21,756 bases of DNA, from assembly GCA_022564935.1 (NCBI GenBank), contig JADFKM010000037.1:1-21756 (forward strand), read 5' to 3'. Below, piece by piece: positions 8,742 to 14,042 of this stretch; position 1 is the stretch's first letter, and each line of letters starts with the position of its first letter. The DNA comes from Candidatus Dadabacteria bacterium (GTDB lineage Bacteria > Desulfobacterota_D > UBA1144 > Nemesobacterales > JADFKM01). The notes beneath the pieces are model-generated. The model had not been told where the DNA came from, searched no databases, and saw only the letters and a list, made by a program, of their open reading frames with translations. The translations under genes and the position numbers were made by a program.

Positions 8742-10229
8742 ATGCGCCAGATTGGGCTAAGGGTCGAGATACTTTTTAATTTGCTTTTGATAACCGCCGT
8801 GGCGATGTTCTTTATCGGTATAATATCGTTCAAGGTCGTCGAAGGATACGCCCTGCGAGGTAAGGTAGACTCAACCAAGGCCGTAATAAGATCATTCAAA
8901 TCGTTCTACTCTACCAACAGAGACCTTAACAAAGCCGTTGAGTTCCTGAGCGATGTCCTCGAGCCCGGCGCCTGGGGGGTTGTGTCGGATTCGAGAACAA
9001 GGGTGTCCTTCGAAGTGGGCGAAACGGATAAGCCCGAGCACATCACAGACCCCATAATCATGGACGTCATCCACAATGGAAGCACCGTAATTAACGAAGA
9101 AGGGTACAGTTTCCTACCCTTTATATATTACAAAGGCCTAAAATACGCAGCCCCTCTCAATACGGGGGGCGGCAAAGGCGGCTTTATCTACATCTACCAG
9201 CCCCTTGGGTCGATAAAAAAGAGTATTCTCGTGGGACACAGGTACATCGCCCTCTGGATTGTCCTCGATTTGACAATAATCGCCTTATTCGGCTCTTACC
9301 TGCTTTCAAGGAGGATTGTCAGGCCGATCCAGCAGCTCATCAAATCCACAGAGGACATAGCGGCCGGAAAGCCCCCGGCAGCCGAAAACCTGGGATGGGT
9401 TCAAGAAATAAACCAGCTGTACCTGTCCCTCGTGAAAATGTATATTGAAATCGAAATGAGCAAGAGAAAGCTCAGGGAAAACTACGACGCCCTTGAGCAA
9501 AGCCACACCGCTCTCCAGGCGGCTCAGAACGAGGTCATATTATCAGAGAAGCTGGCATCTCTGGGAAAGGTTGCCGCAGGGATTGCCCATGAGATAGGAA
9601 ATCCCCTATCTGCAATCCGCAGCTACGTGGATGCGCTTAAAAAAGGGTACGGGGATAAGGAGTGGAAAAGGGACGAAGTTCTCGGCAGCATACAAAACGA
9701 AGTGCAGCGCATCGACAAGATAATCAGGACGCTGCTAGAATACTCCCGGCCGAAGAGCTTTGAGGTCAGAAATGTTAATATAAAAGAGATGATCGAGGAT
9801 TCGATAGATATAATAAATAGCCAGGGTGTGCTTAAGAACATAGAGATCAATCTCCATATGAGCGACGAGTGCCTTGGAGCCAACGTCGACCGTCATCAGT
9901 TCTCCCAGGTCCTTATTAACCTTATACTTAACGCCAGAGACGCAATGGACGGAACAGGCTCAATCACAATCTCCTCAGGGCCGGCAGAAGGCAACGGAGT
10001 CGAGATCGCCGTCCGGGACACCGGTTGTGGTATCTCTCCGGATACGATAGATAAAATATTCGACCCATTCTTCACAACTAAAGAACCGGGAAAGGGAACA
10101 GGACTAGGTCTGGCGGTTTCTCACAGAATAATAGAGAGCTTTTCGGGCAAAATTACCGTGGAGAGCGAGCAAGGAAAAGGCACTGTTTTTAAAATAGTAC
10201 TTCCAGGGGAAACGAACAATGCCTCATAG
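8742..10229 (+). CDS. Membrane sensor histidine kinase, NtrB/ZraS type
   Basis: Sensor half of a two-component system. Residues about 10-30 form TM1, about 31-163 a periplasmic sensing domain with no motif I recognise, and about 168-189 TM2. A HAMP linker follows (about 190-245, [11 protein letters not shown]), then a coiled coil and the HisKA box [11 protein letters not shown] with phospho-acceptor His283. The ATP-binding domain has the N box [11 protein letters not shown] (Asn397), G1 DTGCG (426-430), the F box [12 protein letters not shown] and G2 GTGLGLAV. The 495-residue length is normal. The NPLS after the His and the NtrC-like partner place it with sigma54-linked kinases. The stop overlaps the start of the response regulator by 11 bp. 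No Shine-Dalgarno is obvious, so the exact start is less certain. It could be a PilS analogue given the pilD neighbour, but it lacks PilS's six membrane helices. Confidence 0.94.
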
Positions 10230-11589
10230 CGTGCTGATTGTGGACGACGAAAAGGGAGTCAGGGAAAGCCTATCGCTCATACTCGAGATGGAAGGGTTCG
10301 AGGTCACGAGCACCGCAAATCCCCTAGAAGCCCTTAAGCTCCTGGACGAGGGTAATAAGTTCTCCTACATAATTTCTGATGTCCGCATGCCGGAGATGGA
10401 CGGGATAAAATTCCTTCATCAGCTTAAAAGCAGGGAAGTGAGCTCAAATATAATAATGATATCGGCCTACGGTAATGTCGAAACTTCCATCGAGGCTATC
10501 AAGAACGGAGCCACCGATTACCTGAACAAGCCTATCAACTCAGACGAGCTCATCCTAAGACTGCGTATGATAGAAGAAAGAAACCGCCTTAGGTCTGAAA
10601 ACCTCTACCTCAAGAAAGAGCTCGGAAAGGAAGAAGGGTTCGAAGAGCTCGTGTATTCTGGAGAAATGATGAAGGCCGTTGTGAACTTCGCGAAGCGGGT
10701 CAGCGAGTATAAAACGACTGTCCTCATCGTTGGGGAAAGCGGAACTGGAAAAGAAATCCTGGCGCACGCCATTCATAAATCGAGCCCGAGACAAGACAAA
10801 CCGTTCGTGGCCGTTAATTGCTCGGCAATCCCGGAAACGCTTTTTGAAAGCGAGCTTTTCGGATACGTCAAGGGCGCTTTCAGCGGTGCAAGCAGCTCGA
10901 AGACGGGACTTTTTGAAGAAGCCGACGGCGGCACACTTTTCCTCGACGAGATTGGCGAATTCCCTCCCGCACTCCAGCCGAAGCTGCTTCGGGCGCTACA
11001 GGAAGAAGAGATTAGACGGCTGGGCGATACGAAGACGCGCAAGGTCGATGTGAGAATAATTGCGGCCACCTCACACAACCTTGCAGAAGATGTTCAGCAG
11101 GGAAGCTTCAGAGACGACCTATACTACCGTCTCAACGTCGTCCCTATTACAATACCCCCCCTTCGCGACAGGGCTGAAGACATACCCAAGCTGATCAAGC
11201 ACTTCATACAAAAATACAACATGAAATTCGGCAAGCACATCGAAGGGATCGCTCCCTCCATCATGCCCCGTCTAATGGAGCATCCATGGAAAGGAAACGT
11301 AAGGGAGCTTGAAAACACTATCGAAAGGGCCATAATACTTGCCGACTCCGACACAATTACCAAAATCGACCTGTCCGAAAGCGCCCCACCGGGTGAGGAT
11401 AACAGGAATTTCTATGTGGACACGCTTTCCCTCGACCAGTCATGGCACAAGCTGGAGTACTACCTTATAACGAAGGCCCTTAAAGAGACCGGTAACAACA
11501 GAACCAAAGCGGCCAAGCTGCTCGAGGTAAGCCGCCGCGCCCTGCAATATAAACTGAAGCAATACGGAATGCTGGACGATGAGGACTGA
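10219..11589 (+). CDS. Sigma54-dependent response regulator, NtrC family
   Basis: Transcription activator that drives sigma54 RNA polymerase when phosphorylated by the kinase upstream. The receiver domain (1-115) has Asp9/Asp10, phospho-acceptor Asp54 (ISDVRMPEMDG), Ser82 and Lys104. The AAA+ domain has Walker A GESGTGKE (172-179), Walker B FLDEIGE (241-247) and a sigma54-contacting loop that reads GAFSGA (219-224) instead of the usual GAFTGA. The C-terminal Fis-type helix-turn-helix (NRTKAAKLLEVSRRALQYKL) ends near residue 450. Length of 456 is typical. GGGGA about 10 bp before ATG 10219 serves as RBS inside the kinase gene. The gene is followed by an intrinsic terminator. The target regulon is not visible here. 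Confidence 0.95.
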   Translation: MPHSVLIVDDEKGVRESLSLILEMEGFEVTSTANPLEALKLLDEGNKFSYIISDVRMPEMDGIKFLHQLKSREVSSNIIMISAYGNVETSIEAIKNGATDYLNKPINSDELILRLRMIEERNRLRSENLYLKKELGKEEGFEELVYSGEMMKAVVNFAKRVSEYKTTVLIVGESGTGKEILAHAIHKSSPRQDKPFVAVNCSAIPETLFESELFGYVKGAFSGASSSKTGLFEEADGGTLFLDEIGEFPPALQPKLLRALQEEEIRRLGDTKTRKVDVRIIAATSHNLAEDVQQGSFRDDLYYRLNVVPITIPPLRDRAEDIPKLIKHFIQKYNMKFGKHIEGIAPSIMPRLMEHPWKGNVRELENTIERAIILADSDTITKIDLSESAPPGEDNRNFYVDTLSLDQSWHKLEYYLITKALKETGNNRTKAAKLLEVSRRALQYKLKQYGMLDDED

Positions 11590-11632
11590 GAAGATAAAAT
11601 AAAGCTCACGTCCTGTGAACCTTAAATATAAT

Positions 11633-11666
11633 TCCTGATTAGTTGATAAAATCAGGACTTTTTTTA
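11633..11666 (+). terminator. Intrinsic terminator after the response regulator
   Basis: Perfect 7-bp stem TCCTGAT (11633-11639) / ATCAGGA (11651-11657), an 11-nt loop, then C followed by seven Ts. It lies 44 bp after the regulator stop and closes the two-component operon. Confidence 0.85.
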
Positions 11667-11708
11667 TAGAATCAACTTAATTGCAAAAACTAAAGTATCC
11701 TCACAAGC

Positions 11709-11723
11709 TCTAGAAAATCTAGA
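11709..11723. repeat. Paired TCTAGA palindromes, operator candidate
   Basis: TCTAGA-AAA-TCTAGA: two identical hexamer palindromes 3 bp apart, in an AT-rich stretch 46 bp upstream of the repeat microgene. The spacing suggests a dimeric DNA-binding site, but no good promoter can be fitted around it, so function is a guess. Confidence 0.35.
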
Positions 11724-11768
11724 TTATATGGATTATTCTGCATAATTAATAGTTAGTAGGAAATAATA

Positions 11769-11906
11769 ATGAAAGTATACCCCGATTTTGGCCATCCTGA
11801 AGGAATTCAAGCAACGCCATGGTTTAAAATGAAGGACGATAAACTATTTCCAGATTTCGGACATCCAGATGGAATTAGTTCTGTACCATGGTATAAGATA
11901 AAATAA
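11769..11906 (+). CDS. 45-residue tandem-repeat microprotein
   Basis: Unrecognised small gene. ATG 11769 is preceded by AGTAGGA about 8 bp upstream and the frame ends at TAA 11904-11906. The 45 residues are almost entirely two copies of one motif 23 residues (69 bp) apart: aromatic-PDFGHP-[E/D]-GI-x3-PW-aromatic-K-[M/I]-K, at about 4-22 and 27-45. Comparing copies codon by codon, PDFGHP, GI, PW and the Lys residues are kept while third positions differ (CCC/CCA, TTT/TTC, GGC/GGA, CCT/CCA, AAA/AAG, AAG/AAA), and replacements are conservative (Tyr/Phe, Glu/Asp, Met/Ile). This is the signature of selection on protein, so I believe it is translated. There is no signal peptide or membrane segment; alternating aromatics hint at beta structure. 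It sits alone after the regulator's terminator. I do not recognise the family. Confidence 0.7.
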   Translation: MKVYPDFGHPEGIQATPWFKMKDDKLFPDFGHPDGISSVPWYKIK

Positions 11907-12116
11907 AACTGCTGACGGGGGCAGATGGGGATGAATCTTGTACCACAAAATTTCTTATTATCCCGGTGGGTTATTAAATTTTCCGAGGCGCTTGCCAAAG
12001 CTTTTCCGAACCTGTGCTCAAACTCATCATTCATATCTCTTTTCAAGGCAATAGTGACACATAACCGCCCATCTCCGTAAATAAGCTTCGAAAACCACAT
12101 CACTGGTTGTAATATA

Positions 12117-13226
12117 TTAAACAGTACAGCTTACGAACGTGAAGGCGTGCAGGCTGCAGGCGTTTGAGCTTGTAGAGAGCTTGAGCCTCCTTGTGCCGAA
12201 CTCTCCGTTCTTGACGATGTTGTACATCCTGGGCTCATCTACCTCTATGAAAGTCCTCCCCTCGGTGTCCGTCTTCACATCGTCCCCCATATCCTCCGGG
12301 GCGAGATAGGCGTCATCCTGCATGATAAACACTTTAAAGCCCTTTTCGCCTTCGGGGCTAATTACAATGTTTACTTCGGATGATGTGTAGCGAAGGTGCA
12401 CACGGGCGTCCGAATCACCGTCGGTTAGTGCGGGTCTCGAATACTCCTTTGACACGAGCTACCTGCCTCCGAAATAGATAGTGTCGTCTTTCATTTGAAA
12501 CTCGGTTGTGTAGTCCACGACGCCTTCAGAACGTATACCCTCGGGGTTTCCGGGCTTGCCCAGGTGGTGCCCAAAATAAAGCTCCGGCGATGCCTTGTAG
12601 CAGTGGATGCCGGGGATATCGGTGTCGCGAACGGGCTTCATCAGGTCGGGAAGCTCCACACCCGGCTCCACCTCACGCAACAGCAGCTGTATAGCGAGCT
12701 CCGTTTCGATGTAGCTCCCTTCGCCGAAATGGGCGTATCTCAGGAAACCGTCTTTGTCCGAGAGGTACTTTGCGGGCCAGTACTTGTTGGAAAACGCCTT
12801 CCAGATGGCGTAATCGTTGTCCATCACCACGGGGTAGCGTATATCAAACTTCTCAATAGCCCTTAGTATGTTCTCCTCCTCCCTAGCAAGCTGGAACTCG
12901 GGGGCATGCACCCCAATGACGCTCAGTCCCAGGCCGGAGTACCTGCTGTTCCACTCCTTTATATAGGGAAGGGTTCTTAGGCAGTTAACGCATGTATAGT
13001 CCCAGAAATCCACAAGTACGGGCTTGCCACGGAGCGAGGCGGTCGAGAGTGGATGGGAGTTGACCTACTTCCCGCCCTCAAGCTCCGGCATCATGAACTT
13101 GTTTTTTTCTATAAACACGGCGGGCACCTTCTCCTTAGATATGTATACTCGATACCATTAATATACCAGTGCCGGAGCGCCAAATATAAAGTCCACACTA
13201 TAAAGCGCCACGATTACAATCCCCAT
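12117..13226 (-). pseudogene. Thioredoxin/DipZ-C-terminal-like protein, interrupted by in-frame stops
   Basis: One continuous minus-strand frame encodes a TlpA/DipZ-like thiol-redox protein: a hydrophobic N-terminal 22-residue segment from ATG 13226, then PELEGGK, then LRGKPVLVDFWDYTCVNCLR with the redox CxxC (CVNC), a full thioredoxin fold (SVIGVHAPEF, KYWPAKYLSDKDG), then the C-terminal beta domain ending DEPRMYNIVKNGEFG and AFTFVSC. The reading frame never shifts, but is cut by TAA at 13158-13160 and TAG at 13065-13067 and 12459-12461. From memory of DipZ-type relatives, both TAGs fall where Trp is expected (T-W-LN before LRGK; GG-x-W-x-V before the beta domain), so single TGG-to-TAG changes explain them; other Trp codons remain TGG. 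AAGGAG at 13131-13136 precedes possible GTG starts (13127, 13118). Most simply a recent pseudogene; a two-part or readthrough product is possible. Confidence 0.78.
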
Positions 13227-13247: not shown

Positions 13248-14042
13248 ATGGACGCCGGACAAGCCACAATCAAAGTGGATAGGTGTGAACTCACAGGGGA
13301 GGAGTATCTCAGACTCTCGACCCCGTCACTCACTGCGGAGTACCTGATGGGTCTCGGTATGGATGAGCTCAAAGAAATCGTGACCCTCATGCTAAAAGAG
13401 CACGGCCACTTCGTTTTCCCATCAGACAAAGACCTCAATCAATTTTCGGGAGCCTTCATACTCGAATCACACAAATCTGAGAAGCGTAAATGGAGCGTAA
13501 AATCCTGGAGTCTTTATTGCTGCATAAGGCAGAGTGAACCCGTTAATGCCGAGCTCATAGAGGGGTTTTACAAGATGGTTCTCTCAGACGGCGCCGAGAG
13601 CGGAACGGTAATAACTTCAGGCAAATTCAGTCCCGATGCGAGGCACCTCGGTCAGGAAAAGGGAATAGAGCTAATCGACGGAGAGGTCTTCGTTAAGATG
13701 GTGAAGGAAGCCTCCTCACCCGGACCGTACTCAAGGCAGTGCATGGCCGTTCATGACGACGTAAGAAACGCCATCGTCGAGCTGAAAGAAACCCTCCGGT
13801 CGCTCGGTAAATCCACAGACCGAAGCACGGGGAGCTGGGCTTCTCCGCTCCATATCGACAGGGCGCTGAGAGAGCTTGTAGCGGGTATTTTAGAGCTGTA
13901 CGCAAACCCTAACGACCCGAAAGCAAAAGGGGTGGAGCAAGAGCTGCTCGCTAAAATCGTCGAGGTCAGCACCGCAATCAAAAAAGTGGAGTCCCTGTTC
14001 AAATCCCTGGACGATTTGTTGGAGAGTTCACCTCAAAAATAG
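13248..14042 (+). CDS. Mrr-like (restriction endonuclease-fold) protein, likely inactive
   Basis: Unnamed 264-residue protein. Residues about 117-151 (GTVITSGKFSPDARHLGQEK then GIELIDGEVFVKMV) match the C-terminal part of Mrr_cat domains, where the usual text is like VTTSxFTxxAxxxAxxxxIxLIDGxxLxxLL. The preceding strand, where active enzymes have a QxK (PD-(D/E)xK) centre, reads SLYCCIRQSEPV (88-99), with no QxK and no evident DG-x-D before it. So the fold is probable but nuclease activity doubtful. The C-terminal about 90 residues (from 165) are helical and probably coiled-coil (DDVRNAIVELKETLRSL, AIKKVESLFKSLDDLLESS). It begins 21 bp from the divergent thioredoxin pseudogene. The last residues may have been replaced by an insertion: the KSLDD coding bases recur at 14496-14512. 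Ends with TAG. Confidence 0.72.
   Translation: MDAGQATIKVDRCELTGEEYLRLSTPSLTAEYLMGLGMDELKEIVTLMLKEHGHFVFPSDKDLNQFSGAFILESHKSEKRKWSVKSWSLYCCIRQSEPVNAELIEGFYKMVLSDGAESGTVITSGKFSPDARHLGQEKGIELIDGEVFVKMVKEASSPGPYSRQCMAVHDDVRNAIVELKETLRSLGKSTDRSTGSWASPLHIDRALRELVAGILELYANPNDPKAKGVEQELLAKIVEVSTAIKKVESLFKSLDDLLESSPQK
13999..14015. repeat. 17-bp direct repeat, left copy
   Basis: TCAAATCCCTGGACGAT, inside the end of the Mrr-like gene. An identical copy lies 497 bp downstream. Outside the perfect core TCCC and TGGAG also match in register, giving about 26 of 33 identities. Confidence 0.85.

Follow-up and report, generated by a model that had tools for sequence, protein, structure and literature searches.

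Beta-flowers are small bacterial proteins composed of repeated beta hairpins arranged with four-, five- or six-fold symmetry, in which the turns on one face are short and the loops on the opposite face long; many of them enclose a C-terminal hydrophobic helix, their motif is [DNEQ]xxG, and half-flowers have been noted (PMC10584680). They are represented in Pfam by PF21784 (Bflower), PF21785 and PF21786 (Bflower_3), within clan CL0395. The protein family described here, to which a 45-codon gene of a Candidatus Dadabacteria bacterium belongs, looks in structural models as if it were built like a beta-flower, although we do not claim membership.

The window, i.e., the whole 21,756-nucleotide stretch of DNA analyzed, contains the open reading frame P0001 (11769..11906, + strand), which runs from an ATG start to a TAA stop and encodes MKVYPDFGHPEGIQATPWFKMKDDKLFPDFGHPDGISSVPWYKIK. 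The product consists of two repeat units, KVYPDFGHPEGIQATPWFKMK (11772..11834, +) and KLFPDFGHPDGISSVPWYKIK (11841..11903, +), whose cores (residues 2-22 and 25-45) recur with a period of 23 codons and are identical at 13 of 21 residues. None of 100,000 residue shuffles attained 13 identities, the maximum being 8, and among the 261 open frames of the window the internal-repeat score of P0001 is equalled only by a CDC48-like protein with two AAA domains. These results confirm the two-copy, 23-codon organization proposed in an earlier sequence-only reading. The same reading held that the two repeats differ mainly at synonymous positions, a fair if incomplete description: third positions prevail among the nucleotide differences (4, 4 and 12 at the first, second and third codon positions), yet 8 of the 21 residues differ as well.

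The signals around P0001 largely agree with that reading. A Shine-Dalgarno-like AGGA (11758..11761, +) precedes the ATG by 7 nt, and the terminator ahead of the gene is real. The latter belongs to the upstream NtrC-type gene and comprises a hairpin with an 8-bp stem and a run of seven T (11633..11665, +; -8.6 kcal/mol, z -2.0), which a consensus terminator scan overlooked because its loop is 9 nt long. The paired TCTAGA palindrome is also present, as TCTAGAAAATCTAGA at 11709..11723, but its folding is unremarkable (z -1.0). P0001 resides in the 527-nt gap (11590..12116) between two convergent genes, one encoding the NtrC-type sigma-54 response regulator (10219..11589, +) and the other a redoxin/Thioredoxin_10 protein (12117..13118, -). 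In two relatives from the same taxonomic order (G025 and G013), this gap spans only 88-92 nt, placing P0001 in an insertion of ~440 nt, while in G019 and G022 the gap is filled by a different gene. Moreover, among 57 genomes of the window's phylum the P0001 gene was found in no other, and its GC content is 38%, compared with 52% for the window. The longer gap, the absence from those other genomes and the low GC content together point to gain of a lineage-specific insert, presumably by horizontal transfer, in the window's lineage.

Several other features of the window deserve mention. The redoxin gene is 60% identical to and collinear with intact relatives, and is interrupted at two conserved tryptophan positions by in-frame TAG codons. 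Because TAG serves elsewhere in the window as a normal stop, recoding is less likely than a young pseudogene (or assembly errors). A stretch of this gene, FGHHLGKPGNPEGI...MKDD, was considered as a relative of the repeat and rejected, since it aligns end to end with the normal redoxins of relatives. An Mrr_cat restriction-endonuclease-like gene (13248-14042, +) lies 1.3 kb from P0001, and a tyrosine integrase gene beside tRNA-His at the contig end (20411-21607) probably marks an integrated element running off the contig.

The closest relative of P0001 is the Streptomyces huasconensis gene P0004, encoding MKAYPDFGHPEGIGASPWFKIRGDKLYPDFGHPKGIDPSPWFKLR, which likewise has two repeats and is 69% identical at the protein level (31 of 45 residues). 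Its contig has a GC content of 63-75%, typical of Streptomyces, and the two genes differ sharply in GC3 (27% in P0001 vs 87% in P0004). Of the 31 identical residues, 25 are encoded by different codons, differences are distributed 7/10/36 over the three codon positions (chi-square p 6e-7), and the NG86 estimate of dN is 0.22 with dS saturated. Because 69% of the protein is shared while most identical residues are differently encoded, the peptide itself is what is selected; judged by this comparison, the P0001 reading frame is under protein-level selection. The purifying selection claimed earlier is further supported by the Chitinophaga four-repeat orthologues, with dN/dS of about 0.03-0.19 for those pairs with measurable dS. 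A function as RNA was discarded, as the locus has no Rfam match and the codon-position pattern indicates a protein, and a pure DNA repeat element is rejected by the same pattern. It is thus very probable that P0001 is genuinely translated and belongs to an uncatalogued family.

The extent of this family emerged from searches in plasmids, phages and genomes. A tblastn search of plasmids with the P0001 45-mer found matches over its full length, though weak ones (E 0.3 to 5), which are four-copy tandem arrays of the same 23-residue period, namely KIYRTVSHVDGWNGLPQYEIRGN x4 in E. coli and a Cupriavidus copy. Searches from these arrays led to members on phage contigs (L018, L020 and L059). When 84,980 species genomes were scanned with a degenerate DNA pattern encoding H-x-[DEN]-G-x4-P-x-[YF]-[EK]-x-[RK]-[GD]-[ND]-K, 23 stretches matched, and translation showed nearly all of them to be true members; they come from Chitinophaga (seven), Alcanivorax, Halomonas, Smithella, Electrothrix, Elusimicrobia, Burkholderia, Acinetobacter, Cupriavidus and Streptomyces huasconensis. 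In all, four-repeat members are found on E. coli, Enterobacter and Cupriavidus plasmids, on the three phage contigs and in about 20 genomes. P0004 matches four-repeat proteins with E of 4e-7 to 2e-12 in ten other-genome searches, and the profiles of the two- and four-repeat forms align over their full length, the latter result being confirmatory only as the profiles have sequences in common. Both P0001 units match the family repeat unit, K-[IVL]-[YF]-x4-H-x-x-G-x4-P-x-[YF]-[EK]-[ILM]-[RK]; four tandem units are typical of the family, not defining, as P0001 has two and relatives with one, two or three are known. Across the aligned repeat units, those of the window included, the HPxG loop His is present in 70 of 71 and the Gly in all, figures inflated by a unit finder that demanded H or N and G or S at these positions, and the His is also invariant in unfiltered alignments. 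Candidates L032 and L064 were dismissed as chance matches, as was the sole match of a PDFGHPxG pattern in viral contigs, and first-look matches of P0001 in the window's own order (E 0.01 to 1) gained no confirmation from the profile.

The family is rare and patchy. In E. coli, the gene occurs on plasmids in 14 of 5426 genomes and on 0 chromosomes. With the centre genome counted in each case, matches were found in 3 of 295 sampled genomes of Streptomyces and, at the level of the phylum, in 3 of 296 for Streptomyces (one by chance), 1 of 277 for Smithella, 1 of 296 for Chitinophaga and 3 of 349 for Alcanivorax. Presence in roughly 1% of the genomes sampled, or less, is as expected for mobile cargo, and P0001 is likely a mobile accessory gene. 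Among individual members, six copies (L022, L024, L029, L039, L070 and L015), from several Cupriavidus, a Rhodocyclaceae MAG and a megaplasmid, share the same in-frame TGA in repeat 2 of the four-repeat gene, which probably reflects one mobile element spreading a broken gene. A Vibrio plasmid relative (L019, 2477-2713) has 18-residue repeats devoid of the HPxG loop, and a genome of the Actinomycetota phylum (L063, G814) bears a partly masked PDRDHPNGRSRAKWFRIEGDKV repeat array. In Chitinophaga (L023 and L027), the gene lies downstream of response-regulator genes in the same orientation and is itself retained from species to species; Chitinophaga offers a good system for genetics on the four-repeat gene. 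Homologues exist beyond near-identical strains, contrary to the outcome that would have refuted the sequence-only reading; some related loci are disrupted, either by the Cupriavidus-type TGA or as one-repeat variants.

Scans of family members against Pfam, NCBIfam, PHROGs and PADLOC gave low-score noise only, the PDB contained no match by sequence or by profile, and none of the papers searched contained PDFGHP or YRTVSH. The E. coli plasmid copies are either unannotated or overlapped by an opposite-strand "hypothetical protein" call. By these sequence-based searches, the family is new to Pfam, NCBIfam, PADLOC and the PDB, and undescribed. The earlier statement that no family could be recognized is accordingly true of curated databases, but a broad unnamed family does exist.

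Repeat number varies within the family. At the Streptomyces locus, the gene has two repeats in G060, four in G337 (PDYGHP type) and one in G123 (MNAYPDFGHPGGMSASPWFKLR), all three copies sitting downstream of a conserved 57-codon gene (MAKKLTPGTPAPKSGQYK...) kept in the three species. The Streptomyces relative has a Shedu SduA nuclease gene and, likewise close by, a tRNA-like sequence (L042, 4537-5424 and 6090-6265). Related E. coli plasmids carry four, three or one repeats, so that the relatives with other repeat numbers sought on the basis of the earlier reading are indeed found. Recombination presumably causes these changes. Repeats within one gene are nearly uniform on mobile elements (identity 0.92-0.96 in E. 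coli and Enterobacter) and in two Burkholderiales (0.88-0.90), but have diverged in Chitinophaga (0.4). Repeat 1 of the window is more similar to repeat 1 of the Streptomyces gene (identity 0.76) than to its own neighbor, repeat 2 (0.62), a slight hint from sequence that the two-repeat form is older than the split between the two genes.

To relate the family to known folds, we turned to structure prediction. For the four-repeat protein of Smithella, AlphaFold2 (AF2), supplied with 12 sequences, reached a pLDDT of 96.8 and a pTM of 0.86 and predicted eight strands (residues 2-6, 18-23, 26-29, 43-46, 49-52, 64-69, 72-75 and 87-92), values to be read with AF2's tendency toward confident models for repetitive sequences in mind. 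In this model, the repeat boundaries form tight hairpins with 2-residue turns, and the HPxG stretch forms a long loop of about 12 residues. From the strand count, the pTM and weak barrel matches, we infer that four-repeat members would form a closed barrel. For the window protein alone, AF2 predicted a single hairpin at residues 18-29 with a pLDDT of 49.5, a low value that may reflect merely a short sequence and a thin alignment. The self-pairing beta structure suggested earlier is supported in so far as the repeat is predicted as a beta hairpin. A poor lone model beside a confident four-repeat model fits, without proving, assembly of a barrel from two copies; that two P0001 molecules would form such a four-hairpin barrel is, on these predictions, evenly balanced.

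A fold search with the four-repeat model retrieved no significant match in the PDB or BFVD (best VIA Z 4.8). The predicted eight strands, with short turns and long loops, would suit the architecture published for the four-fold beta-flower. However, the long loop of the present family has HPxG rather than [DNEQ]xxG, and the C-terminal hydrophobic helix is absent. Bflower profiles gave no match above the curated cut-off for P0001 or 19 relatives, and profile-profile comparison of the family with three true Bflower proteins yielded nothing. Only the divergent Vibrio member matches Bflower_3, and does so weakly and below the cut-off (E 1.2e-4; 22.5 bits vs 34); this protein possibly bridges the two groups. 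Choline-binding/CROP-type cell-wall-binding repeats (such as C-LytA), which share aromatic-rich hairpin repeats of about 20 residues, occupy the top Foldseek rows, none of them significant (E 0.27 or worse). Those repeats are open solenoids, and their whole-fold TM against the four-repeat model is about 0.2. Lipocalin-like barrels (e.g., Atu4866, 2jmb) share the eight-stranded meander barrel inferred here and give the best VIA-align rows, yet their Z of 4.8 to 4 signals no more than a common arrangement and their sequences are unrelated.

As a whole, the locus is best explained as a half-size barrel-repeat microprotein carried as mobile accessory cargo, an account we consider reasonably probable. 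P0001 encodes a real microprotein, which with its two repeats is half the usual size for this uncatalogued family, whose 23-residue repeats are predicted beta hairpins. In the four-repeat form, each repeat would contribute one hairpin (strand WYEIR, a tight G-N/D turn and strand KIYPT) and one long loop bearing HPxG, the four together building an eight-stranded barrel that resembles a four-fold beta-flower; two copies of P0001 would pair into the same barrel. The gene would spread horizontally as a stand-alone unit via plasmids, phages and chromosomal insertion spots, and its repeat number would shift by recombination between 69-nt units. The product would act as a small soluble binding protein through a ring of conserved His and aromatic loop residues, and such a mobile accessory binding barrel is the role we favor. 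More tentatively, and with less than even odds, P0001 may be an obligate homodimer and the 22-residue form a homotetramer, with genes of one to four repeats being living intermediates of one symmetric fold, whose repeat number is free because selection sees the assembled barrel on mobile elements.

Alternatively, the family could be a component of phage and plasmid conflict, such as an antitoxin, an anti-defence protein or a defence accessory protein. It is carried by phages and plasmids, and conflict-type genes often adjoin it: the window has the Mrr_cat endonuclease gene, Streptomyces has Shedu SduA, E. coli plasmids have HigBA, and other loci have a NACHT NTPase, RelBE (in Vibrio) or HNH, FRG, RhuM, SocA/Panacea and Xre/MbcA/ParS antitoxin genes. 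However, neighborhoods differ, no conserved operon partner that would point to a function recurs across the family loci compared, and PADLOC models match no member; as such neighbors are expected for any gene on accessory DNA, the association is suggestive only, and we regard this role as somewhat unlikely. Another reading of the models is that the near-invariant His of each repeat forms a symmetric metal- or cofactor-binding site in the assembled barrel. The His conservation described above argues for it, whereas the loops may face away from the axis and the Vibrio member lacks the His loop entirely, making such a site unlikely.

P0001 could also be the contracted, decaying remnant of a four-repeat gene, functionless and retained by chance. 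Repeat loss is common, as seen in the three- and one-repeat E. coli plasmid genes and the one-repeat Streptomyces gene (G123); the one- and three-repeat plasmid genes could be decay products, and the two-repeat form might then be one as well. The identical Cupriavidus-type copies with an in-frame TGA and the adjoining redoxin gene with its two TAG codons are further examples of broken genes. Yet the start, the Shine-Dalgarno-like site and the stop of P0001 are all intact, and the two-repeat form is common to two distant phyla at 69% protein identity with 36 of 45 third positions changed. It also looks old from the repeat 1 comparison, and decay thus appears quite improbable. Finally, a secreted peptide signal or modified peptide (RiPP) precursor, suggested by small size alone, is hardly credible, given that P0001 has no N-terminal leader, cleavage site or adjoining maturation or export genes and that its relatives are compact predicted barrels.

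The half-size barrel microprotein favored here belongs to a family that annotation pipelines miss and through which plasmids and phages in several phyla gain one more unexplained cargo gene. If the half-size protein folds as a dimer, natural forms of a single barrel with one, two, three and four repeats would be at hand, and the growth of symmetric folds by duplication of small self-assembling peptides would become testable with natural sequences. The interest of the family lies in what such a series could show about fold evolution and in the wide spread of a cargo gene that goes unannotated, rather than in a known activity.
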